NCBI GenBank assembly: GCA_020052375.1
Contig: JAGVPG010000005.1
Coordinates: 1-59,257, forward strand
Source of the DNA: Actinomycetota bacterium
GTDB lineage: Bacteria > Actinomycetota > JAHEXW01 > JAGVPG01
Direction: 5' to 3'
DNA: 59,257 nt
Shown: positions 4,311-20,296 of the stretch, piece by piece
How positions within the stretch are numbered: position 1 is the stretch's first letter
How the letters are laid out: each line of letters begins with the position of its first letter
The notes under the pieces: model-generated
Databases searched by the model: none
The model's input: the letters and a program-made list of their open reading frames with translations, nothing else
What the model was told of the DNA's origin: nothing
Program-made: the position numbers and the translations under genes

Positions 4311-5408
4311 ATGAAGCACATCGTGTCCAAGATCACCCATCGTAAAATCCTATTTGTTGGTCTCATACTTGTCTTGTTCCTTCTCATGTCGACGAACATC
4401 CTGGCGCTGACCATCACCGAGACGCGGATCACAACAAACACGTCCGATCAATTCAATCCCGTGATCTCAGGAAACAAGATCGCCTGGGAGGACATGCGTA
4501 ACGGGAACTATGACATATACGTATACGATATCTCTACTTCTACAGAAACCCGCATAACGACCAATGCGGCAGCCCAACAGCAGCCGGCTATCGATGGTGA
4601 TAGAGTTGTTTATAACGATATCCGCAGCGGTCATTGGGACATCTACATGTACGACCTCTCGACCTCGACTGAAACGCGCATCACGAACAACGCATCGACG
4701 CAAACCCGTCCAGCTATTAGCGGTGATAAGATCGTTTGGCAAGATTACCGTAACACAGTTACTGATATCTACATGTACGACCTCTCGACCTCGACCGAGA
4801 CACGTATCACGACGAATGGAAGTTCACAAGACTATCCAGCGATAAACGGTAACAAGATCGTTTGGCAAGACTACCGTAATGGTGCCTCTGACATCTACAT
4901 GTACGACCTCTCGACCTCGACCGAGACACGTATCACGACGAATGGAAGTTCACAAGACTATCCAGCGATAAACAGTAACAAGATCGTCTGGGAAGACTGG
5001 AGGAACGTTGCAAGGGATATCTACATGTACGATCTTGCAACATCTACCGAAACGCGTCTTACAACCAACGGTTCGGAGCAGCAGATACCAGCTATCTACG
5101 GCGATAGGGTCACTTACATAGATAACCGAAACGGTAACTGGGATATATACATGTACGATCTATCCTCTTCTACCGAGACACAGATAACGACTGACGCAGC
5201 GAATCAATCCTCGCCGGCGATCTATAACGACAGGATTGTAAATGTCGACTACCGTAACGGCAACTGGGACGTCTATATGTCGACACTTTCCGCAGTATCG
5301 ACCGGTGTAAACAAAAACATAGCTTCATTATTATCAATACTCGCCATATCTTCCGGTTTATTGCTGGTCGTATATGTCAGAAAGAAGAAGAGCTACGCGC
5401 TGAGTTAG
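4311..5408 (+). CDS. Membrane-anchored seven-bladed beta-propeller protein, copy 1
   Basis: 365 residues. A signal peptide (about 1-33, ending STNILA) is followed by seven 42-residue repeats of the form ETRITTN...PAI.G.KIVW.D.RNG..DIYMYDLSTST, then a C-terminal hydrophobic segment and a basic tail (RKKKSYALS). Seven TolB/WD40-like repeats are enough for one closed seven-bladed propeller facing outward and held by the C-terminal anchor. The ligand is unknown; propellers of this type usually bind proteins or glycans. Repeats 4 and 5 are almost identical in DNA (near 4810 and 4936), a sign of recent internal duplication. The ATG follows GAGAGGGG. The next gene is a full paralogue of the same length. 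Confidence 0.8.
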   Translation: MKHIVSKITHRKILFVGLILVLFLLMSTNILALTITETRITTNTSDQFNPVISGNKIAWEDMRNGNYDIYVYDISTSTETRITTNAAAQQQPAIDGDRVVYNDIRSGHWDIYMYDLSTSTETRITNNASTQTRPAISGDKIVWQDYRNTVTDIYMYDLSTSTETRITTNGSSQDYPAINGNKIVWQDYRNGASDIYMYDLSTSTETRITTNGSSQDYPAINSNKIVWEDWRNVARDIYMYDLATSTETRLTTNGSEQQIPAIYGDRVTYIDNRNGNWDIYMYDLSSSTETQITTDAANQSSPAIYNDRIVNVDYRNGNWDVYMSTLSAVSTGVNKNIASLLSILAISSGLLLVVYVRKKKSYALS

Positions 5409-5448: not shown

Positions 5449-6546
5449 ATGAAACATCGAGTAACAATGGTTACCAACCGCAAGGTCATCACTATCATTC
5501 TCATGCTCTTTTTGTTTCTTCTTATGTCGACGAACATCCTGGCACTGACTATAACAGAGACACGGATAACAAATAACGTCTATACTCAAACTCGCCCGGC
5601 AATATACAACGATCGCATAGTATATCACGACGTCCGTAACGTGAACGTTGACATCTATATGTACGATCTCTCAACCTCCACCGAGACACAGATAACCACC
5701 AACGCGTCGGATCAAAGCGATCCGGCGATCTACGGCAATAAAATAGTCTATCAAGATAACCGTAACGGGAACCAAGACATCTATATGTACGACCTTTTAA
5801 CCTCTACGGAGACACAAATAACTGCCAATGTATCGAATCAAAACACCCCGATGATCTCTGGTACCAGGATCGTCTACAATGATAACCGTAACGGGAATAA
5901 CGACATCTACATGTACGACTTATCAACGTCCACAGAGACTCGGATAACCACCAACGCATCGACTCAAAGCGTTCCGTCGATTGACGGCAACAGAATAGCA
6001 TATGAAGACAACCGCAACGGTCATTGGGATATCTACATGTATGATCTTTCCACCTCCACCGAGACACGGATAACCACCAATGCATCGACTCAAAGCGTTC
6101 CGTCGATCTACGGCAACAGAATAGTCTTCAACGACTTCCGTAACGGGAACACAGACATCTATATGTACGACCTCTCGACCTCGACCGAAACACAGATCAC
6201 CGCCAACACATCAAATCAACAACGACCGGTTGTCTACGCTAACAGAATAGTATACGAAGACTACCGTAATGGGACCCCAGACATGTATATATACGACCTC
6301 TCGACTTCGACCGAAACACAGATCACCACGAACGCATTGTCTCAATTGCAGCCGGCGATCTATGGCGACAGGATCGTTTACGAAGACACGCGCAACGGGG
6401 GCTTTGAAATCTACATGTCAACGCTTTCTAACTATTCGACTGGTGTAAACAAAAACATAGCGGCGTTGATGTCCTTATTCGCCATATCTTCCGGTTTACT
6501 GATGGTCTTATATGTCAGAAGGAAAAAGGCATACACGCTTAGCTGA
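5449..6546 (+). CDS. Membrane-anchored seven-bladed beta-propeller protein, copy 2
   Basis: 365 residues, the same length as its upstream neighbour, with the same plan: signal peptide, seven 42-residue blades, C-terminal anchor and basic tail (RRKKAYTLS). The stretch LLMSTNILALTITETRIT at the start of blade 1 is identical in both proteins, while other parts have diverged, which suggests gene conversion. Blades 4 and 5 are near-identical here too. RBS AGAGGGGG lies upstream of the ATG, 40 bases after the stop of copy 1, so the two are likely one transcript. Function unknown; secreted and surface-exposed by prediction. Confidence 0.8.
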   Translation: MKHRVTMVTNRKVITIILMLFLFLLMSTNILALTITETRITNNVYTQTRPAIYNDRIVYHDVRNVNVDIYMYDLSTSTETQITTNASDQSDPAIYGNKIVYQDNRNGNQDIYMYDLLTSTETQITANVSNQNTPMISGTRIVYNDNRNGNNDIYMYDLSTSTETRITTNASTQSVPSIDGNRIAYEDNRNGHWDIYMYDLSTSTETRITTNASTQSVPSIYGNRIVFNDFRNGNTDIYMYDLSTSTETQITANTSNQQRPVVYANRIVYEDYRNGTPDMYIYDLSTSTETQITTNALSQLQPAIYGDRIVYEDTRNGGFEIYMSTLSNYSTGVNKNIAALMSLFAISSGLLMVLYVRRKKAYTLS

Positions 6547-9399: not shown

Positions 9400-9432
9400 T
9401 CTCATGAGACTCTCATAATTGTTCGATATAAT
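9400..9432 (+). promoter_or_regulatory. Direct-repeat operator and leaderless promoter of the response-regulator gene
   Basis: TCTCAT at 9400-9405 and again at 9411-9416 (11-bp period), then 10 bases, then a perfect TATAAT at 9427-9432, then 6 bases to the ATG at 9439. The repeats cover the place of a -35 box, as with activators of the OmpR/PhoB family, which bind direct repeats with 11-bp spacing. The start of transcription should fall on or next to the ATG. The same arrangement occurs at 11149-11181 and 14365-14397. Confidence 0.75.
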
Positions 9433-9438
9433 AAAAAC

Positions 9439-10122
9439 ATGCAAGTATTAATCGTAGAAGACGAGCCGAAAATCGCTCAGCTAATACGCCGTGGTCTGAT
9501 TGAAGAGCATTATGCAGTCGATATAGCATACGACGGCCATGAAGCGATAGAGAAGTTTGAGACTAACGAGTACGACTGTATAGTCCTGGATTGGCTTCTG
9601 CCGGGACAAGACGGGTTAGCCGTCTGCCAGACTATCCGTAGGAAAAACGTAACCGTCCCCATCCTGATGCTGACGGCGAAGGGTGATATATCAGATAAGG
9701 TAGCGGCGCTTGATAGTGGAGCGGATGACTATCTTACAAAGCCCTTTTCATTCAATGAATTGACTGCCCGGATCCGCGCGTTACTCAGGCGCGGAAACAA
9801 AGCAGACCCCGCGATTTTGACTGTTGATGATCTTGAATTAAACCCGGCGACCCGGCGGGCGGTCCGTGCCGGTCATGAGATCTCTTTGACCGCCCGGGAA
9901 TATGCCTTGCTCGAATACCTTATGCGCAACAAGAACATCGCTTTGTCCAAAACACAGATCCTCGACCATGTATGGGATTATAGCTATGACGGATTCTCCA
10001 ACATCGTCGAGACTTATATAAGGTATCTTCGCAAGAAACTGCAAATATCTCCCGAAAGCCGTGAGCTTATTCATACAGTACGCGGGCATGGTTATATTAT
10101 AAAAGGAAACGGCCATGTTTAA
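9439..10122 (+). CDS. OmpR/PhoB-family response regulator
   Basis: 227 residues. The receiver domain (1-~118) has acidic pocket residues in VEDE, the phospho-acceptor Asp51 in IVLDWLLPG, and Lys101 in LTKPF. The C-terminal winged helix (about 128-225) ends with TVRGHGYI, typical of OmpR/PhoB. An upstream in-frame extension exists, but the ATG at 9439 fits the start of the receiver fold and lies 6 bases after TATAAT, so the mRNA is probably leaderless. It overlaps the histidine kinase gene by 8 bases. It probably binds the TCTCAT repeats and so activates itself, the ABC exporter operon and the gene at 14471. Confidence 0.95.
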   Translation: MQVLIVEDEPKIAQLIRRGLIEEHYAVDIAYDGHEAIEKFETNEYDCIVLDWLLPGQDGLAVCQTIRRKNVTVPILMLTAKGDISDKVAALDSGADDYLTKPFSFNELTARIRALLRRGNKADPAILTVDDLELNPATRRAVRAGHEISLTAREYALLEYLMRNKNIALSKTQILDHVWDYSYDGFSNIVETYIRYLRKKLQISPESRELIHTVRGHGYIIKGNGHV

Positions 10123-11125
10123 AAGTGCCCGCCTTAGGCTGACCATTATATACTGCGCGGTGTTCTTCGTCGTCTTTTGGACGTTTACTCTGGGGTTATA
10201 CTTCTGGATGGATAATTCCTTTGGTGAAGGCTATATCAGCCAGGTCAAAGGTCGCCAGACAGAGCAATCCGGGGAATTCGATTTCAACGACAAATCGGTA
10301 GAGACAGTCACTATAGCCGGAGATGTTGCTATGGGAAGATTGGAGTGGGTATTGCTGATACTCAATGGCGGGATGTTGCTTGTGATCCCCCCGCTGGCAT
10401 GGATGCTAACGGGACGTACACTGCGACCGATAGAGACTATGTACGACCGGCAAGAGCAGTTCGTCTCCGATGCGTCGCACGAGTTGCGGACTCCACTTAC
10501 GGTCATACAGGGCGAGCTGGACGTAGCACTTAAGAAAGAACGGTCTCCCCGGGAATACCAACGAGTCCTGGACAGCGCTCGCCAGGAGCTCGGCGGATTG
10601 CACGAGCTTGTCGAGGCACTTTTGCTCGAAACCAGGGCTGGTGAAGGAAAAGCTATGTTGGCACAGGACGAAGTAGATATCATCGATCTTCTTACAGAAA
10701 CGATAGAACGTATGTCACCGCTCACAGTTGCCAAGAGTGGTTCGCTTGAATTCGATCCTCCAACGACACGCCTTGTCGTACGGGGCTCATCCATAATGCT
10801 CGGCCGCTTGTTCGGAAATGTCATTGACAACGCGGTCAAAGCAATCGACTCCGGGGGTCATATATTGGTTACCGCAGAAGCACAAGGCGTGCACGTTTTA
10901 GTAACCGTTTCGGATGACGGACACGGGATGACTCAAGAAGCGGTCGCGCACTCTTTTGACCGTTTCTATCAAGCGGATGACGCGCGTGCGCGACAAGGAT
11001 TCGGTCTAGGGCTTGCGATCTCCAAGACAATCGTCGAACAACATCGAGGAACGATAACGCTGACATCAGAGCCTGGCCGGGGGACGTTAGTAAGCATTAA
11101 GCTCCCTCGTAAAGTCTCCACGTAA
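10115..11125 (+). CDS. Membrane sensor histidine kinase
   Basis: 336 residues. Two membrane helices (about 9-31 and 78-98) flank a short outer loop of ~45 residues with acidic and polar residues, too small for a large ligand domain. A short HAMP-like linker follows, then the HisKA domain with H122 in SDASHELRTPL, then the HATPase domain with N, G1 and G2 boxes (NVIDNAVKA, DDGHGM, GFGLGLAI). It should phosphorylate the overlapping response regulator. The small sensor loop next to an ABC exporter resembles kinases that detect membrane-active compounds through their transporter; that link is inference. Confidence 0.92.
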   Translation: MFKSARLRLTIIYCAVFFVVFWTFTLGLYFWMDNSFGEGYISQVKGRQTEQSGEFDFNDKSVETVTIAGDVAMGRLEWVLLILNGGMLLVIPPLAWMLTGRTLRPIETMYDRQEQFVSDASHELRTPLTVIQGELDVALKKERSPREYQRVLDSARQELGGLHELVEALLLETRAGEGKAMLAQDEVDIIDLLTETIERMSPLTVAKSGSLEFDPPTTRLVVRGSSIMLGRLFGNVIDNAVKAIDSGGHILVTAEAQGVHVLVTVSDDGHGMTQEAVAHSFDRFYQADDARARQGFGLGLAISKTIVEQHRGTITLTSEPGRGTLVSIKLPRKVST

Positions 11126-11148
11126 GAGGCCCCTCTTTATCATCCACC

Positions 11149-11181
11149 TCTCATCTTATTCTCATATTAGATAGTTATACT
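11149..11181 (+). promoter_or_regulatory. Direct-repeat operator and leaderless promoter of the ABC operon
   Basis: TCTCAT at 11149-11154 and 11160-11165 (11-bp period), 10 bases, TATACT at 11176-11181, 6 bases, ATG at 11188. Every spacing is identical to the site before the response-regulator gene. Confidence 0.75.
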
Positions 11182-11187
11182 CAGATC

Positions 11188-11919
11188 ATGTCTACTACCA
11201 CTATTTCTGTCAACAAACTGACAAAGACATACAACGGCCAGATGGCGATCGAGGATATCAGTCTTAATATCCAACAAGGCGAGATCTTCGGTTTTCTCGG
11301 CCATAACGGCGTCGGCAAGACGACAACGGTTAACATCTTGACGACCTTGCTCGATCTATCATCGGGGAGCGCCGAGGTCTGCGGGCATGATGTGGTGAAA
11401 GATAGCATGAGCGTTCGACGGATGATCGGGTACTTGCCGGAAAACGTTCAGTTCTACGACGCCCTGACTCTCCATGAAAACCTGGCATTTTTTGCCCGGT
11501 TGTCGGGAATCTCCAAACCTGGCGATCGTATCCGCGAAGTACTTCAATTCCTTGAGTTTACCGGTTTCGAGCACCAAAAGCTCGCGACATTCAGCAAGGG
11601 CATGCGCCAGCGGGTGGGTATTGCCCAGGCCATCCTGCATAAGCCGGAGGTGCTATTTCTCGATGAACCGACATCCGGGCTTGATCCGCAGGGGGTTAAA
11701 ACACTACGGGAAAGTATCATCCGTTTGAATAAAGAGCTCGGCATGACTATTTTCATGAATACGCATCTATTATCAGAGGTGACTAAGACATGCACGAGCA
11801 TCGGCATTCTGAGCGGCGGTAGGCTGATATACCATGACTCGCTCGCAAAAACACTAGAGGCTTTTCCCGGCCGGGACTCACTTGAAGATATCTATCTTTC
11901 TATCGGAAAACAATTCTGA
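11188..11919 (+). CDS. ABC transporter ATP-binding protein
   Basis: 243 residues. Walker A is GHNGVGKTT, the signature motif is FSKGMRQRVG, and Walker B is VLFLDEPTSGLD. The order and length fit the ATPase subunit of ABC-2 type exporters (the NodI/CcmA/NosF-like group). It drives the two permeases encoded immediately downstream. Its TGA overlaps the next ATG (TGATG), so translation is coupled. No ribosome site is seen; the ATG follows the -10 box by 6 bases. Confidence 0.95.
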   Translation: MSTTTISVNKLTKTYNGQMAIEDISLNIQQGEIFGFLGHNGVGKTTTVNILTTLLDLSSGSAEVCGHDVVKDSMSVRRMIGYLPENVQFYDALTLHENLAFFARLSGISKPGDRIREVLQFLEFTGFEHQKLATFSKGMRQRVGIAQAILHKPEVLFLDEPTSGLDPQGVKTLRESIIRLNKELGMTIFMNTHLLSEVTKTCTSIGILSGGRLIYHDSLAKTLEAFPGRDSLEDIYLSIGKQF

Positions 11920-12824
11920 TGAGAACCCTTCTCGTGATAGCCAAGCATGAATTCAAGTCGGCAGGCAAAGAGCGCTTATCTATCGCTTTGCTAGTTGTAT
12001 TTCTCGGTATGGTACTCGTGTCAAGCTTCATCGGCTGGACGACACACCACACGGTGATGAGTATTTATAATGAAACCTTACACGAGACCGGGATGAAGTT
12101 ACTGAATCCCTTTCTGAAAGCGTCACCGCTCGACAGCATCAAGAACACGGTCATCTACATCGTCCTCATCGGAGCCTTGTTGGCCGTCATTACGGGCGCT
12201 CGCTCTTCGGTCCGCGACCGCAAGGCGTTCGTTGTCGATCTGGTGTTCTCCCGTCCCGTCAGCTCCTGGTCGTACGTGTTCGGTAAACTGCTTGGCGTCC
12301 AGGCATGGATAGGACTCGTTCTCCTTGTCGCGGCAATCACCAGCTGGGTAAGTATCTGGGTCGTAACCGCCCAAGTTCTCTCTCCACTCAACACATTATT
12401 GTTGCTCGCTTTCTTCGCTCTGGCATGGTTCTTCTTGTTGCCGTTCTCGGCGGCCGGACTGATTTCCGGCGCGTATGGCCGTTACGAATCGACCGCTCTT
12501 CTGATACCGATTCTATTCTGGGTGGTTGTCACCTTCGTGATTCCTCAGCTTGGAACGGCCGCGCATCCTACGGCGCTACTAAATCCGGTAGCCTCCGGGA
12601 ACACGACGACCGGGATGTTCTTTCAGGTAAGCAGGTTTGTCCTTCAGCCGATATCCCTGACCGAGCACTTCAAGCACACCAGTGGTATCTTGCTGCGTCT
12701 GCAGGACGTCGAGCCACTGCCCGTATGGCAGGATCTGTTGTCCATCGGTGTGATTTCCTTGTTGAGTCTTGGAGCTCTCGCAAGGGTTTCAAGACAGGCG
12801 ATAAGGCAAGGTCTCTATGAATAG
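11919..12824 (+). CDS. ABC-2 type permease (NosY-like), first subunit
   Basis: 301 residues with about six membrane helices. After the first helix comes an extracytoplasmic loop, then the conserved cytoplasmic stretch DRKAFVVDLVFSRPVSSWSY, typical of NosY-like ABC-2 permeases. It would form a heterodimeric channel with the next gene product. The exported or moved substrate is unknown. It overlaps its neighbours on both sides, so this is a tight operon. Confidence 0.85.
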   Translation: MRTLLVIAKHEFKSAGKERLSIALLVVFLGMVLVSSFIGWTTHHTVMSIYNETLHETGMKLLNPFLKASPLDSIKNTVIYIVLIGALLAVITGARSSVRDRKAFVVDLVFSRPVSSWSYVFGKLLGVQAWIGLVLLVAAITSWVSIWVVTAQVLSPLNTLLLLAFFALAWFFLLPFSAAGLISGAYGRYESTALLIPILFWVVVTFVIPQLGTAAHPTALLNPVASGNTTTGMFFQVSRFVLQPISLTEHFKHTSGILLRLQDVEPLPVWQDLLSIGVISLLSLGALARVSRQAIRQGLYE

Positions 12825-13794
12825 TCCCGCTATGACCGTCTTCAAGAAGGAGATCAAAGATGCGCTCCGCAGCCGCGTTACTGTAATCCTGATCATCGGA
12901 TTGAGCGCGATCGTCTTACTTTCGCTGGTTGTTGCGTCCTTTGAGTTCCGCGCCAAAGTCATTGACTACCAGCAATACCTGCAGTCTCTGAAGCAATCAG
13001 GAGGATCTGTCACAGATCTACCGCCTCAGTTCTTTCCTCTCCAGCTGATTCGGAGCGCTGTTGAGTATCTGGAGATCATAGGCGCGATCATCGCGATCGT
13101 CATGGGCTACGGTCTGGTGGCAAAGGAAAAAAACCGGGGCACGCTGCGACTCTTATTCAGCCGTCCGATCAAAAGCGCTGATGTATCGGTCGGCAAACTG
13201 ATGGCCCTAGCTTGCATCTGGCTTATCATCCTGGTGTTGTTAAGCGGCGTCATGATCGGTTCTTTGATGATTATAGGCGGTGTTTCTTTGTCGGGCACGG
13301 AGGTCGTCAAGTTATTCATCTTTGCAGGTCTGGCGTGGCTCTACTTATTCATGTGGAGCGTACTCGCTATGGCATTGGCTGGTTACAGCAAGCGTTTGAG
13401 CACTGCGCTTGTCATATGCCTCGTTCTCTGGCTAAGCATCGTGCTCATCATCCCGCAGATCGGCGATACGATGGACCCCGACAACCAGGTGCCCGGCGGT
13501 TTGTTCAAGAGCCTGCAAGTCGACAAGCTCCATGAGAAAGCCGTCCTGGCGCACTTCACTGGCTACGAGACGGCGAGAAACCTGCTTGAAGAAACGTCGC
13601 TAAGCAAACGCTTCGAGCGGGTGAGTTTCGCGTATCTCGGCATAAAAGATGAGTTCAACCAAAAGCCACTCGGTTTCATCTGGAAAACAAAATGGCCGGA
13701 TATAGCCACGCTGGTCGGCGCAACGGGGTTGTCAATCGTCCTTGCCATCATATTCAGTAAGAAACAGAAACTCTTGCGAAAGGAGTACTCATGA
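12817..13794 (+). CDS. ABC-2 type permease (NosY-like), second subunit
   Basis: 325 residues, a distant paralogue of the preceding permease: it shares the pattern VAKEKNRGTLRLLFSRPIKSA before its second helix and has about six helices. A large outer loop (about 35-80) is rich in Gln and Ser. It overlaps the upstream permease by 8 bases and the downstream lipoprotein gene by 4 (ATGA). Two different permeases with one ATPase suggest a heteromeric transporter. Confidence 0.85.
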   Translation: MNSPAMTVFKKEIKDALRSRVTVILIIGLSAIVLLSLVVASFEFRAKVIDYQQYLQSLKQSGGSVTDLPPQFFPLQLIRSAVEYLEIIGAIIAIVMGYGLVAKEKNRGTLRLLFSRPIKSADVSVGKLMALACIWLIILVLLSGVMIGSLMIIGGVSLSGTEVVKLFIFAGLAWLYLFMWSVLAMALAGYSKRLSTALVICLVLWLSIVLIIPQIGDTMDPDNQVPGGLFKSLQVDKLHEKAVLAHFTGYETARNLLEETSLSKRFERVSFAYLGIKDEFNQKPLGFIWKTKWPDIATLVGATGLSIVLAIIFSKKQKLLRKEYS

Positions 13795-14357
13795 AAAAAC
13801 GTATCATCATCGGGATCGTCATCATTACGATCATTACCGGAGGCCTTATCGCTGCAGGATGCTCGACGCAGAAGCCGGCCACAAAGAATGCTGGTGTGAA
13901 CGGGAGCTCGAAACAAGTCCTTCCGGTCGCGAAAAACCCGATTCAAAGCGTATCAAAGAAAGAAGGTCTTTCGATAACCGAAGTCCTTGTCGAGAACAAC
14001 GTTGACCCGGTTACAAAGAAGGACCTGACGGACCGCCTCCAGATCAGCGTTAAGAACTCAAGTAATGAGACTATGAGCGGTTTTGAGGTCTATTACACCA
14101 TGACCGACGCTGTGACCAAAAAGATCGAGGGCTATTACCAGAAACTGACAGATTTCCAAATCAAACCCGGCGAAACCAAGACTATTTACTTTGACAATGA
14201 AAATAGCGCCAGCCACTATCAGGAGAATAGATACAGCCTCTACAGGACTTCGAAAAACGAAGTGCTGTTCACGATCGAAGTGAGCGCCACAGGATATGCC
14301 CCGGCTACAGCCGAAACCAAGAAAGCGCCAGGGACCGGAGAAAAAGCCGGCGAATAG
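13791..14357 (+). CDS. Lipoprotein of the ABC operon
   Basis: 188 residues. The signal and lipobox (GGLIAAGC, Cys at about 24) are clear. The mature part has a low-complexity linker, then an immunoglobulin-like domain of the FxLYD type: LSITEVLVENN...LQISVKNSSNETMSGFEVYY with an IKPGETKTIYF strand. It ends in a Lys/Glu/Ala-rich tail. GAAAGGAG precedes the ATG, which overlaps the permease stop. Being last in the ABC operon, it may be an extracytoplasmic partner of the transporter; this rests on context only. Confidence 0.75.
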   Translation: MKKRIIIGIVIITIITGGLIAAGCSTQKPATKNAGVNGSSKQVLPVAKNPIQSVSKKEGLSITEVLVENNVDPVTKKDLTDRLQISVKNSSNETMSGFEVYYTMTDAVTKKIEGYYQKLTDFQIKPGETKTIYFDNENSASHYQENRYSLYRTSKNEVLFTIEVSATGYAPATAETKKAPGTGEKAGE

Positions 14358-14364
14358 TCTTCCT

Positions 14365-14397
14365 TCTCATACGATTCCCATATCGACTTACTATGCT
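14365..14397 (+). promoter_or_regulatory. Third copy of the direct-repeat promoter
   Basis: TCTCAT at 14365-14370, TCCCAT at 14376-14381 (one mismatch, same 11-bp period), 10 bases, TATGCT at 14392-14397. Unlike the other two sites, the next gene (14471) lies ~70 bases beyond the expected transcription start and has its own strong ribosome site. Confidence 0.65.
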
Positions 14398-14470
14398 GTA
14401 AGTGGAAGTCGGTGCTAGATTCGGAACTGGAGAATGAAAAACTTGAGGATGTTGGATAAGGAGGTGTGAT

Positions 14471-14755
14471 ATGAAAATAAAAATCATAGCGATAACCGTT
14501 GCCACATTAGCAGTAATAGTAGTCGGCGCATCAGCGGGAACGTTCATAAAAAGTCGGACCGCGCAGGCGCAAAGCGCAACCGTTACAGCCACCCAGACCG
14601 TTGAGAAAGAGGACGCGAAAGGACCGGACACCGACAACGTGCAGAACGAAAGCGAAAACGAGGCTGACGACGCGAACGAGAAGAATGCTAAGGCGGATAC
14701 CGACAACATACAGTACGAAAGCCAGAGCGAGGCCGACACCGACAACAGCAAGTAG
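14471..14755 (+). CDS. Small acidic exported protein
   Basis: 94 residues. The N-terminal helix (IIAITVATLAVIVVGASAG) is a signal peptide or anchor. The rest is disordered and strongly acidic, rich in Asp, Glu, Asn and Thr, with an internal repeat: DTDNVQNESENEAD recurs as DTDNIQYESQSEAD. No family is recognised. The ribosome site AAGGAGGTG is near perfect. Its promoter shares the operator of the two-component system and ABC operon, so the protein may be the main effector of that response, for instance shielding the outer membrane face from a cationic compound. That role is speculation. Confidence 0.7.
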   Translation: MKIKIIAITVATLAVIVVGASAGTFIKSRTAQAQSATVTATQTVEKEDAKGPDTDNVQNESENEADDANEKNAKADTDNIQYESQSEADTDNSK

Positions 14756-14787: not shown

Positions 14788-14811
14788 GGGACGGAGCATT
14801 TGCTCCGTCCC
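14788..14811 (+). terminator. Hairpin terminator
   Basis: An 11-bp perfect stem, GGGACGGAGCA with TGCTCCGTCCC and a 2-base gap, stands 33 bases after the stop of the small acidic protein gene. A T-run is absent, so it may work as an mRNA end stabiliser or a weak terminator. Confidence 0.6.
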
Positions 14812-14905: not shown

Positions 14906-15661
14906 ATGACAAGGACTAGGCAAAACTTTCTTGTACTACCTATTGTTATTGTTATGTCCATAGTGGTCGTACTGGTCGTTGTGGGATGCTCAACAAAAGA
15001 GTCATCTCCCAAAAAAACCAATACGAGCGGACAAGACATCAGTTGGAGCGATAACATCATAATCAACAAAAGTGAACTGGCATCGACCGGCGTCAATCCA
15101 TATTTCAATCTCAAGCCCGGATATCAGCTGGTATTCGAAGGCACCGAGAAAGGGCAAAAAGCAAGTAATACTATAACCGTGCTCAAAGATACGAAGATAA
15201 TCGATGGCGTGGAAACCAGGGTTGTCGAAGAACGCGCCTTATCGAATGGCACGATCTCAGAGGTATCGCGCAACTATTTCGCTATCTCCAAGACAACTGG
15301 AGTGGTGTATTACTTCGGTGAGGACGTCGATGAATATGACGCGTCAGGTCGCGTAACAGGACATTCGGGAACATGGCATGCTGGAGAGAACGGGGCGAAA
15401 GCCGGTATTATGATGAACAGTGACATCAAGAAGGGGCTCCGTTATTACCAGGAAGTAGCTCCCAAAGTGGCAATGGACCGTGCCGAGATCGTCAACGTTT
15501 CTGAATCAGCTACAGTACCTGCAGGTAAGTATACAGATGTCATTAAAATAGAGGAGACAACCCCGATCGAGCCTGGATATAAGGCATACAAGTTCTACGC
15601 AAAGGGCATTGGGCTTATCAAAGACGGAGATCTGCTACTTGTAAGTATGTCCGGGCAGTGA
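14906..15661 (+). CDS. Lipoprotein of unknown function
   Basis: 251 residues. The hydrophobic signal ends in VVLVVVGC (lipobox Cys at 28). The mature part is beta-rich, starting with PYFNLKPGYQLVFEGTEKG and later VPAGKYTDVIKIEE and KFYAKGIGLIKDGD. I have seen this layout (LKPGY near the N-terminus, IGLI near the end) in unassigned secreted proteins, but know no function. AAAGGAG lies before the ATG. It sits next to the regulon genes but has no TCTCAT site of its own. Confidence 0.65.
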   Translation: MTRTRQNFLVLPIVIVMSIVVVLVVVGCSTKESSPKKTNTSGQDISWSDNIIINKSELASTGVNPYFNLKPGYQLVFEGTEKGQKASNTITVLKDTKIIDGVETRVVEERALSNGTISEVSRNYFAISKTTGVVYYFGEDVDEYDASGRVTGHSGTWHAGENGAKAGIMMNSDIKKGLRYYQEVAPKVAMDRAEIVNVSESATVPAGKYTDVIKIEETTPIEPGYKAYKFYAKGIGLIKDGDLLLVSMSGQ

Positions 15662-16484: not shown

Positions 16485-18026
16485 TTAAGAAGATGAACTA
16501 GCCTCTTTCATTAACGACAATATGAACTTGCCGAACGGCAGTATATCATTACTTAGATGGCCTTCGTTAAGCGCTTTGAAGTATCGCTCACGTTGCTCAG
16601 CTCTAATGGTTATCCATTCGTATCCGGATGTCAGCAATACGTAATTCATCAGGAGTCGTGCTGTTCTTCCGTTGCCGTCTGCGTAAGGATGGATTGCCAC
16701 AAAGAAGTAATGCGCGAGGATAGCTTTAATAACCTCGTTTTCAATTGAATCGACATACTTCTCATAGCTTTCCATAAGATCAAGCAGTTTAGTTTGAGCC
16801 GGTGGAACGTAACTTGTTCCACGGATGAACGCCGGAGCGTTTCTATAAGCCACTAAATCAACCGGTTTGACAATGCCGTTGTCGGCAGAAGGTTTGAAAA
16901 GCTGATAGTGTGTGTCCTGTACCAATTCTTGAGAAACTCTTGCTCTACCGAAATCATTCTTGACCTTACCGATGATAAAATCAAAAGCTTCAGCATAACC
17001 CAAGATCGCCATGCGGTTTTCAATCTCCTTGACGTGCTTGTCCCCATCCTTCACTTTAAAAGGAACCTTGCGGAAGATAACAGCATCCACATCTTCGGGT
17101 GTGATCTGGTAGCCTTCGAGTGTCGTCGAATGGTAAATGTCGTATCGTTTGTGCTCCACGGCTGTTTCAACCAATTCATTAAGATTCCTCGTTGGCAGCC
17201 CCTGGATTTCGCCATGAAGGGTTGCTTCAAGATGCTTTTCAAAGGCATGTATATGCTCTGCTTGCTGAGAAATCCACGGAGCGATAAGCTCGGGTTCCTT
17301 AACTGATGCCGTAGGCTCTTTGGTCTTTTTCTTCCTGCTCGTGCGATATAAGGTATTGGTTCTGATAATTACCTCTAGTGCCGACGCTAAGTCACCTCGT
17401 CCAGACTCTTCGGCGATATTGACAACACGGTTCAAAACGATCGGCTGAGGTCTTTTTAAATAGAGTGCTTCGATGATACGAACATTAAACTTCGTTCCTC
17501 GGATAAAACTCTTATAAGCAGACGGGACTTCCAACTTCCGAGAAATAGCATCTACAAGTACCCTTTCAGGCATATCAACAGATAGCTTGCGACCGACCAC
17601 GCTGACCACTTTGGTCAATCGAGAATCAAAGTCCTTGTCTTCAACGACCAAAACCTTAAAGCCGAACGGTAGTACAAATGTCCTGTTGATTGGTTTAGCG
17701 GACCGAATAAGTAGGTGTTTCTGGTCCTGTTCGTTTCCGACCAAAATCTCAAGCGCGGAATCGGCCCTTATCGACCAGGGTTTGTACCGATCAAGAAATC
17801 TTTCAATGATTTGCCAGTAGAGCAAGAGAAATAGCTGCTCCGGCTCGTCTTCCGGTTTCTTAAGAATGAAGTATCCGCTTATAACCGGAGACAGAAGCTT
17901 TTCGCGTTTGAGCAGCTCCCGAACCGCGCGATCAGGAATATTATCCTTAGTTGCGACAATATTTCCTCTTTTTAAATTGTCAGCCCATACCTTAAGGGCT
18001 CGTTCTCTTAGTTTGTATGTTCTCAT
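16485..18026 (-). CDS. Fic-domain protein with an N-terminal AbiEi-like regulator domain
   Basis: 513 residues. The C-terminal Fic domain carries the complete active site HPYADGNGR at 446-454, so it should transfer AMP or a related moiety to a protein hydroxyl. An inhibitory motif S-TTL-EG is at 300-305, ahead of the Fic core, as in class II Fic proteins. Residues ~1-150 look like a winged helix followed by a C-lobe of the AbiEi/Rv2827c type (IVATKDNIPDRAVRELLKRE, WSIRADSALEIL). It thus appears to fuse a DNA-binding antitoxin-like regulator to its toxin. Three 24-bp iterons lie directly upstream (18049-18120), a likely self-binding operator. It forms a defence-like block with the next two genes. 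Confidence 0.85.
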   Translation of the reverse strand: MRTYKLRERALKVWADNLKRGNIVATKDNIPDRAVRELLKREKLLSPVISGYFILKKPEDEPEQLFLLLYWQIIERFLDRYKPWSIRADSALEILVGNEQDQKHLLIRSAKPINRTFVLPFGFKVLVVEDKDFDSRLTKVVSVVGRKLSVDMPERVLVDAISRKLEVPSAYKSFIRGTKFNVRIIEALYLKRPQPIVLNRVVNIAEESGRGDLASALEVIIRTNTLYRTSRKKKTKEPTASVKEPELIAPWISQQAEHIHAFEKHLEATLHGEIQGLPTRNLNELVETAVEHKRYDIYHSTTLEGYQITPEDVDAVIFRKVPFKVKDGDKHVKEIENRMAILGYAEAFDFIIGKVKNDFGRARVSQELVQDTHYQLFKPSADNGIVKPVDLVAYRNAPAFIRGTSYVPPAQTKLLDLMESYEKYVDSIENEVIKAILAHYFFVAIHPYADGNGRTARLLMNYVLLTSGYEWITIRAEQRERYFKALNEGHLSNDILPFGKFILSLMKEASSSS

Positions 18027-18481: not shown

Positions 18482-20188
18482 TCATCCCTTGGCATTTGGT
18501 AAGATTGGTTTGTGTTGATTGAGAAAACTCTTAATATTCTTATCGTGCCACATACCGGTATCCCAACCCGCATAAGTAAAGAACTCCTTTCCAGCGAGTT
18601 CGTCAAGCTCCATAATTACTTGCGCCAATGTATCGTCATCGGTCTTGGGTATAAGAACTGCTCTAACGTCTCTGTCTTCTATGATTTTGGCCACAATTGG
18701 TTCGGTTCTATAATTGTAAAATCTTCCGAAGCTAGGGTATCCATCACCCCTACATTTGTTTTCTAGAACCGCGTGAACGCATTGGACGAAATCAAACTGG
18801 CAAAGAGCATTGAGATAATTATCTTCATTAGATAAGAAAAGGTCGTTAAGTATTAGGCTGTTCTTCACATACGCCGCAGCCATTTGAATAAAACCTTCCT
18901 CTTTAGTCCTGCCTTCACGTACTAGCATAGTAAGTGTGTGGCGAGCCCAGAATCTGCTTTTCCAATAATCATCCCAATCTACCTTTTGTCTGACTAGGAT
19001 GGGAATCCAATCGTACATCTTGCGTCTGACCAGTAATGCTCCAAGAGCATATACTCTCCTTATAATCTCCTGCCAGATCCATTGCTGACTGAAATGTTGT
19101 TCAGTTTCTAAACTCCGTGGGAACTCCTCATCATATGCTCTCCTGTAGATTTGGTATAGTGCTTCGCACAACTCCGTAAAGAGCTCTTTCTCTTTGTATT
19201 GAGCGAGAGCTACACCCAAAACGGTAAGATTATCTAAGATCGGAATCAAGCGGTTATCTTTGGTTTTGGTTATCTCATCTGAACTTGCACCAAAGACTGA
19301 CTTAACGTCAGTCCAGAAAGTTTTAGGTGCATTATTGAAGACCCACATCAATACGAATTGATCGTTGTCGTGAAGTGCAGACAGGACTTGGTCATAGAAG
19401 GTCTTTTCGCCAAGGAAGAATGTGCTTTCTCGCTGCTCAAGAGGTGCTAATCCACGGACAACTTGCTTCTGTTTTTCGGTTCTCTTAGTTGTTTTCTTCC
19501 CGTCTGTCATCGATCCTGCAAGAAGATCAATGAGGGCGTCCAGCCTCTCTGTCAATGCTTTAACGCCAAGAATCTCTTCTGTCCATTCCTCCTTATCACG
19601 TCGCCTTATGTTGGAAGCGAAGCGGTTCCAATCCTCCTGTGATGCTTTGATACTCGAACCTCCCTTTCTGACAAACCAGTCGCCGTCCTTGAAAACACAT
19701 TCATTATTCACTCTCTTGCCTTTATACTGACCATCCTTTGTGAAGATCGCTGGTTCTCGATCCGAGGGAGGAATGTATAGAAAAGCAAAAGGTTTATTGT
19801 CATACTTAGGCACATTGTGGATTTGTAGTTTGATTTCGATTCTTTTACTAAGAAATGTCTCAATCTGGGATTTGATCTTGTCAATGTCTAAACCGTGAAG
19901 ATGTTCTGGCTTAATGCCTACCGGATTGTACTTTCGGTCGCCATCATCGGCCTCCTCAACTCCAAGAACAACATAGCCACCATACGTGTTGTACATTGCA
20001 GCTACATCGCGAGCCACCTCAATCTTATCTTTACCCGACTTCCTGCCTTCAAGATCATAGCTACTTTTATAATCGAGTCGTTCTTCCTCGCGGCCAAGTG
20101 CGATATAGTATTGCAGACGCCTCAGAGACAGGTCACCATCGACAATAACTTCGGCTACCGGTATTTCTTCTTCCTTCTTATTTGACAT
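18482..20188 (-). CDS. AlbA_2 (Schlafen-like) putative DNA-binding protein
   Basis: 568 residues from the ATG at 20188, chosen over an earlier in-frame start because GGAGG then stands 5 bases away. The N-terminal ~130 residues form an AlbA_2 domain: EEERLDYKSSYD, then EVARDVAAMYNTYGGYVVLGV. The rest (about 210-568) is mostly helical, with no family I recognise. AlbA_2 proteins occur as regulators and in phage-defence loci. It stands between the fic and HNH genes, both also typical of accessory defence regions, and may belong to the same acquired block. Confidence 0.75.
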   Translation of the reverse strand: MSNKKEEEIPVAEVIVDGDLSLRRLQYYIALGREEERLDYKSSYDLEGRKSGKDKIEVARDVAAMYNTYGGYVVLGVEEADDGDRKYNPVGIKPEHLHGLDIDKIKSQIETFLSKRIEIKLQIHNVPKYDNKPFAFLYIPPSDREPAIFTKDGQYKGKRVNNECVFKDGDWFVRKGGSSIKASQEDWNRFASNIRRRDKEEWTEEILGVKALTERLDALIDLLAGSMTDGKKTTKRTEKQKQVVRGLAPLEQRESTFFLGEKTFYDQVLSALHDNDQFVLMWVFNNAPKTFWTDVKSVFGASSDEITKTKDNRLIPILDNLTVLGVALAQYKEKELFTELCEALYQIYRRAYDEEFPRSLETEQHFSQQWIWQEIIRRVYALGALLVRRKMYDWIPILVRQKVDWDDYWKSRFWARHTLTMLVREGRTKEEGFIQMAAAYVKNSLILNDLFLSNEDNYLNALCQFDFVQCVHAVLENKCRGDGYPSFGRFYNYRTEPIVAKIIEDRDVRAVLIPKTDDDTLAQVIMELDELAGKEFFTYAGWDTGMWHDKNIKSFLNQHKPILPNAKG

Positions 20189-20296
20189 AGGCTCCTCCGA
20201 CATCATAATTATGCTCTGCCTGTGGAAAAACCTCAAGTGCTGGGCTGATTACTGACCTTGTGATACAATGGTGCACATTCACCAAGTGAGGTACGC

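Follow-up and report, generated by a model that had tools for sequence, protein, structure and literature searches.

A conserved candidate two-component regulon with a shared 11-bp-period operator at three promoters in an Actinomycetota genome

We analysed a 59,257-nt stretch of DNA from an Actinomycetota bacterium (contig JAGVPG010000005.1, assembly GCA_020052375.1), here called the window. One locus in it carries a response regulator (RR) and sensor kinase pair, an ABC-2 exporter and a small exported acidic protein, with a TCTCAT-type direct repeat in front of each of these three units. Their promoters suggest an autoregulated two-component regulon. The features of the locus, with the evidence for each, are as follows.

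9400-9416, plus strand: operator 1, TCTCAT-GAGAC-TCTCAT, upstream of the RR gene (sequence; kept in relatives).
9427-9432, plus strand: -10 box TATAAT of the RR promoter, N10 after operator 1 and N6 before the ATG at 9439, predicted leaderless (sequence; layout alike in genomes G093 and G305; leaderless rule, PMC3160421).
9439-10122, plus strand: OmpR/PhoB-type RR, 227 aa, with Asp51 in the receiver domain and a recognition helix from Ser187 (Pfam Response_reg, Trans_reg_C; translation).
10115-11125, plus strand: sensor histidine kinase, 336 aa, with two membrane helices separated by a loop of about 50 aa (Pfam HisKA, HATPase_c; hydropathy).
11138-11143, plus strand: an extra, weaker half-site, TATCAT, 11 bp 5' of operator 2 (sequence).
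11149-11165, plus strand: operator 2, TCTCAT-CTTAT-TCTCAT, upstream of the ABC operon (sequence; variant repeat at the matching place in loci L255 and L258).
11176-11181, plus strand: -10 box TATACT of the ABC operon, N10 after operator 2 and N6 before the ATG at 11188, predicted leaderless (sequence; the 38-bp repeat-to-ATG spacing recurs in L255 and L258).
11188-11919, plus strand: ABC transporter ATPase, 243 aa (Pfam ABC_tran).
11919-12824, plus strand: ABC-2 permease 1, 301 aa (Pfam ABC2_membrane_2).
12817-13794, plus strand: ABC-2 permease 2, 325 aa (Pfam ABC2_membrane_2).
13791-14357, plus strand: lipoprotein, 188 aa, its start overlapping the end of permease 2 (translation; orthologs beside permeases in L253-L258).
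14365-14381, plus strand: operator 3, TCTCAT-ACGAT-TCCCAT, upstream of the acidic-protein gene (sequence; TTCAT-type repeats at the acidic-protein gene in L254, L255 and L258).
14392-14397, plus strand: -10 box TATGCT of the acidic-protein promoter, N10 after operator 3, leadered (sequence).
14458-14466, plus strand: strong Shine-Dalgarno sequence AAGGAGGTG of the acidic-protein gene (sequence).
14471-14755, plus strand: small acidic protein of 94 aa, exported, carrying DTDN(V/I)Q motifs (translation, relatives, hydropathy).

Within each transcription unit, neighbouring genes overlap. The RR combines a receiver with a winged-helix domain (115.9 bits to Response_reg and 94.8 bits to Trans_reg_C), and Pfam gave no HAMP match in the kinase and no family for the 188-aa lipoprotein.

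Read from the sequence, the operators at all three sites consist of 6-bp half-sites that recur with a period of 11 bp. A first-pass annotation had described three promoters of identical architecture with base-exact common spacing. Direct reading bears out the spacing, and the arrangement of repeat, N10 and -10 box holds at all three, whereas downstream of site 3 the architecture differs, with a leader and a Shine-Dalgarno sequence. At sites 1 and 2 the -10 box begins 12 bp 5' of the ATG and there is no Shine-Dalgarno sequence; at site 3 the open reading frame starts 73 nt past the -10 box, giving a leader of about 65 nt. The sign of a leaderless gene, common in Actinobacteria, is a TANNNT that starts about 12 bp before the start codon with no Shine-Dalgarno sequence (PMC3160421), which is found at the RR and ABC genes but not at the acidic-protein gene. 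Since their -10 boxes lie 6 nt before the ATG and no Shine-Dalgarno sequence is present, the RR and exporter mRNAs are predicted to be leaderless. If transcription begins at the A of the ATG, the repeat spans -39 to -23 and so overlies the -35 region. The first-pass annotation had missed this leaderless layout, as well as the acidic protein's membership in a conserved family (see below).

Short motifs can arise at random, and the shuffle rate predicts about one bare repeat pair in a genome of this size, so that the repeats might be chance resemblances. The window contains three copies of TCTCAT-N5-TCYCAT, where 300 dinucleotide shuffles have a mean of 0.04 (maximum 1), and the pair followed by N10-TANNNT occurs three times against none across 300 shuffles. 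The earlier statement that the window holds no other such pair stands. A genome-wide motif scan, which the first-pass annotation had suggested, covered 1.64 Mb in 35 contigs; the full pattern TCTCAT-N5-TCTCAT-N10-TANNNT with at most one mismatch is restricted to the three window sites. At up to two mismatches the scan adds one site in a coding frame and one register-shifted overlap of site 2, and a reversed control pattern at this threshold gave 3 matches. The shuffle tests and the conservation of the repeats at orthologous promoters contradict a chance origin, to which we give a negligible probability.

The repeat recurs in front of related regulators across the phylum. We counted TCTCA(T/G)-N5-TCTCA(T/G) with at most two mismatches and within 120 bp of the RR start in the 29 RR relatives with usable upstream DNA; it is present in 20, where shuffled upstream regions give 0.3. 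The closest relatives, G093 and G305 (67-68% identity), keep the arrangement repeat-N10/11-TATAAT-N6-ATG. In 27 RR promoters where the repeat is clear, a -10-like hexamer mostly lies 10-11 bp past it, in many cases with 6-8 nt left to the start codon, and the sequence where a -35 hexamer would lie is not conserved. The earlier reading of an OmpR/PhoB-type direct repeat over the -35 region is supported by the 11-bp period, by its position and by this recurrence before RR genes in the phylum. With the repeat over -35, a distance of 10-11 bp between its second half-site and the -10 box, and no conserved -35 hexamer, the promoters have a class II layout, and their geometry would correspond to PhoB/PmrA-type class II activation, for which an unconserved -35 hexamer is expected.

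The same layout bears on the direction of control. The RR might bind the repeats but repress, holding the three units off until a signal arrives: a repeat at -39 to -23 (counting from the ATG) lies where a bound protein can block polymerase, and the RR promoter of the window itself contains a fair -35 match (ATGAGA, 10/12 together with the -10 box). The -35 hexamer is nevertheless unconserved among the 27 promoters with the repeat, and a strict 10-11 bp from repeat to -10 box is needed to recruit polymerase and not simply to block it. We consider repression unlikely, and activation the better account of these promoters.

When contigs were searched with the RR as query, the matches were mostly distant regulators, with a clear TCTCA(T/G) repeat only at Streptosporangiaceae loci and at L055. 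This last record is labelled as a proteobacterium and has an exact TCTCAT-N5-TCTCAT 82 bp upstream of an RR whose helix likewise starts with Ser-Asn; it reflects either gene transfer or a misplaced contig. Looser scans of the relatives gave extra sites mostly inside coding frames, which we took as chance, and in G305 no additional site that could be attributed to module genes. WhiB, which among the control genomes gave a signal in Corynebacterium alone, had no match in the source genome; 7 of the 12 relatives tested have one, and on this ground we take the phylum to be Actinomycetota.

Exporter orthologs are rare. Three genomes (G034, G067 and G311) have them next to genes for an RR, a kinase and a small acidic protein, the last from a single family, and the orthologous gene content is found at loci L254, L255 and L258. 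The ABC and acidic-protein promoters of the modules in G034, G067 and G311 carry TTCAT-N6-TTCAT repeats. In L255 and L258 the repeat lies 38 bp before the ABC ATG, as in the window, and the acidic-protein repeats of orthologous modules lie 75-98 bp before the start. A (C/T)TCAT-N6-(C/T)(C/T)CAT repeat is present in 13 of 17 module promoters tested in several families, against 0.02 expected; the 17 take in the window's own three sites as well as some promoters of RR genes. The sites are thus conserved together with the module, and the variant repeats at exporter and acidic-protein promoters imply that these units are wired alike in different families with a changed half-site.

The letters of the operator also follow the regulator. 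Where the recognition helix begins with Ser (Ser187 in the window RR), the first half-site ends in T; where it begins with Pro, Gln or Thr, the half-sites end in G. This holds in 27 of 27 RR promoters, among which L286 repeats the gene of L157. The RRs of the TTCAT modules have another recognition helix, VKNLRKK or IKQLRKK. Because the tree needs only about two switches, this agreement is suggestive only, and a test of helix against operator on independent pairs, too few in number, did not reach significance. We see roughly even odds that this is an old and undescribed actinobacterial envelope regulon, made up of regulator, kinase, acidic exported protein and exporter and read from leaderless promoters of class II, in which the operator changed together with the recognition helix (TCTCAT where the helix has Ser187, TCTCAG where it has Pro, and TTTCAT with a helix of another kind). 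If true, it would provide a natural test set for the DNA-recognition code of the OmpR family, and matched changes in operator and helix could help to predict DNA specificity from OmpR-family sequences.

These observations also speak to which regulator binds. OmpR-family regulators share this operator geometry and the genome has five Trans_reg_C genes, so that one of the four besides the RR might bind the repeats, the adjacent pair being merely a target. All four differ from the RR in the recognition helix and have no such repeat upstream. Across the phylum it is relatives of the RR that the repeat accompanies, and the letters of the repeat track the helix of the RR concerned. Control by another regulator is accordingly very improbable. 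The first-pass proposal of a regulon of the adjacent two-component genes gains strong support from the confinement of the motif to the locus, its recurrence at RRs across the phylum, and the variant repeats at orthologous modules in which the RR helix has changed.

The acidic protein appears to belong to a family whose hallmark is DTDN(V/I)Q in the nearest relatives and, outside the source genome, also a C-terminal GGHxDxxxNV(D/N)HQ tail. The window protein lacks the GGHxDxxxNVDHQF tail of its apparent relatives; its apparent homology to these DHQF proteins is judged by its location, its composition and the DTDN motif. When one of the relatives was used for a profile search, the window protein was not recovered, and it had no Pfam match above cut-off, including to PepSY. 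At L180 a DHQF-type protein is preceded by its own TCTCAT-type site, 89 bp upstream.

Two further features follow the acidic-protein gene.

14788-14811, strand not assigned: strong hairpin GGGACGGAGC-N4-GCTCCGTCCC, 24 nt, a possible terminator of the acidic-protein transcript, with no U-run listed on the plus strand.
14906-15661, plus strand: lipoprotein, 251 aa, a tentative extra regulon member without an operator of its own (homologs elsewhere lie behind the motif or beside the RR).

The hairpin may mark the end of the acidic-protein transcript. The family of the 251-aa lipoprotein is represented in 48 of 397 Actinomycetota genomes and has a weak DUF3108-like match; its members often adjoin an RR of this family or follow a TCTCA(T/G) repeat. 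Single-sequence structure predictions of the two lipoproteins were poor (predicted local distance difference test scores, pLDDT, of 58.8 and 44.8) and a fold search gave no match below E 0.001, so we read no function from them.

Other genes behind similar sites in the phylum encode lipoproteins of the same 14906-15661 family, PepSY-type small proteins, a DUF347 membrane protein and an ABC-2 permease. At L177, L180, L183 and L184 an operon divergent from the RR has its own TCTCAT-type site and, judging from translations, encodes a lipoprotein, two ABC ATPases and a large FtsX-like permease; this is a different kind of exporter that seems to be wired likewise. At L178 (11372, minus strand), a strong DUF347 membrane protein (198 bits) lies behind a TTTCAT/TCTCAT-type site.

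Three other regions of the window, all away from the module, were recorded.

4311-5408 and 5449-6546: tandem 365-aa exported proteins with repeated 'RITTN...DIYMYDLSTSTE' units (propeller-like) and a C-terminal membrane tail.
16485-18026, minus strand: 513-aa protein in which the stretch HPYADGNGRTAR resembles a Fic domain.
18482-20236, minus strand: 584-aa protein that adjoins the 513-aa Fic-like protein.

Taken together, we propose, with a probability of about 0.7, an autoregulated two-component regulon in which predicted binding of the RR activates its own operon, the ABC-2 exporter and the acidic protein; we infer the binding, activation as the direction of control and the leaderless starts. 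The kinase would sense a change in the envelope and phosphorylate the RR at Asp51. An RR dimer would then sit head-to-tail on TCTCAT-N5-TCTCAT, its half-sites one helical turn apart and ending 10 bp before the -10 box, and would recruit RNA polymerase in place of a -35 element. The outputs would be the RR-kinase operon itself and the exporter with its two different permeases and lipoprotein, both from leaderless mRNAs, and the small secreted acidic protein from an mRNA with a leader. The exporter may move a harmful envelope-active compound, and the acidic protein may bind cations or cationic molecules outside the cell; signal and substrate are the least certain parts of the model.

Several observations weigh against this proposal. 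About a third of the RR relatives have no repeat, and in L254, L255 and L258 the RR promoter itself lacks one. The RR promoter of the window, with its fair -35 match, need not depend on an activator. G002 (L253, C2:1-14000), a genome from the same taxonomic order, has the ABC, two permease and lipoprotein genes at 55-71% identity, together with a second lipoprotein copy, and neither a regulator nor a repeat was found near the exporter, which shows that the exporter can exist without the two-component system. Finally, the agreement between helix and operator comes down to the two or so switches in the tree.

As to purpose, envelope proteins and ABC exporters are the shared theme of the targets, which makes envelope protection the most likely one; from gene content, a membrane-stress or antibiotic-peptide response is plausible. 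The wiring could be as described and yet serve a response to metals or secretion stress, with the acidic protein binding metal ions. The best named RR families include heavy-metal regulators and RppA, albeit below cut-offs, the relatives of the acidic protein bear a His/Asp-rich tail, and at other loci the motif precedes genes for PepSY and DUF347 proteins. The window regulon nevertheless has no metal-transport gene, and its combination of an ABC-2 exporter with a lipoprotein is that of systems that protect against antibiotics and lantibiotics. We regard a metal or secretion-stress role as possible but the less probable of the two, and retain envelope protection. The regulon would give a little-studied actinobacterial lineage a concrete and testable system, propose an operator for a widespread, unnamed regulator family, and tie an orphan family of small acidic secreted proteins and several lipoproteins to a two-component system.

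Among known systems, the best-scoring named families for the RR and kinase are RppA/RppB and CztR/SilR/CopR, all below curated cut-offs: the RR scored 233.3 against 250 bits for RppA and the kinase 177.2 against 400 bits for RppB, and the RR 222.7 against 279.2 bits for TIGR01387 (CztR/SilR/CopR). CutRS of Streptomyces and MprAB of Corynebacterium and Mycobacterium are likewise actinobacterial envelope or secretion-stress systems with OmpR-family regulators, and MprAB appears to be autoregulated (PMC12113857). Identity with CutR or with MprA of C. glutamicum is rejected on their operators, TAWATAAA for CutR (PMC12802291) and TKTTAAGAAM for this MprA (PMC12113857), against the TCTCAT repeats of the window. 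No published TCTCAT-type operator was found in the literature searched, which left most subscription journals out of reach.

The gene content resembles lantibiotic immunity modules. In these, LanRK accompanies LanFEG and LanI, so that a two-component pair likewise stands beside an ABC-2 ATPase, two different permeases and a lipoprotein; the window differs in its extra small acidic protein, and no lantibiotic genes were seen nearby. The ATPase scored 183.9 bits against a cut-off of 309.75 for TIGR03740, the curated model of lantibiotic protection, which does not identify the exporter as LanFEG. The promoters resemble those of PhoB (the Pho box) and PmrA, in which two half-sites with an 11-bp period cover the -35 region and leave about 10 bp to the -10 box. 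The window shares this geometry and the OmpR/PhoB type of regulator, and differs in its TCTCAT half-site, in two of three promoters being apparently leaderless, and in its phylum, Actinomycetota; the operator of Salmonella PmrA is a YTTAAK direct repeat, as cited in PMC10927774. The system is real and conserved, apparently undescribed in the literature searched, and familiar in kind.

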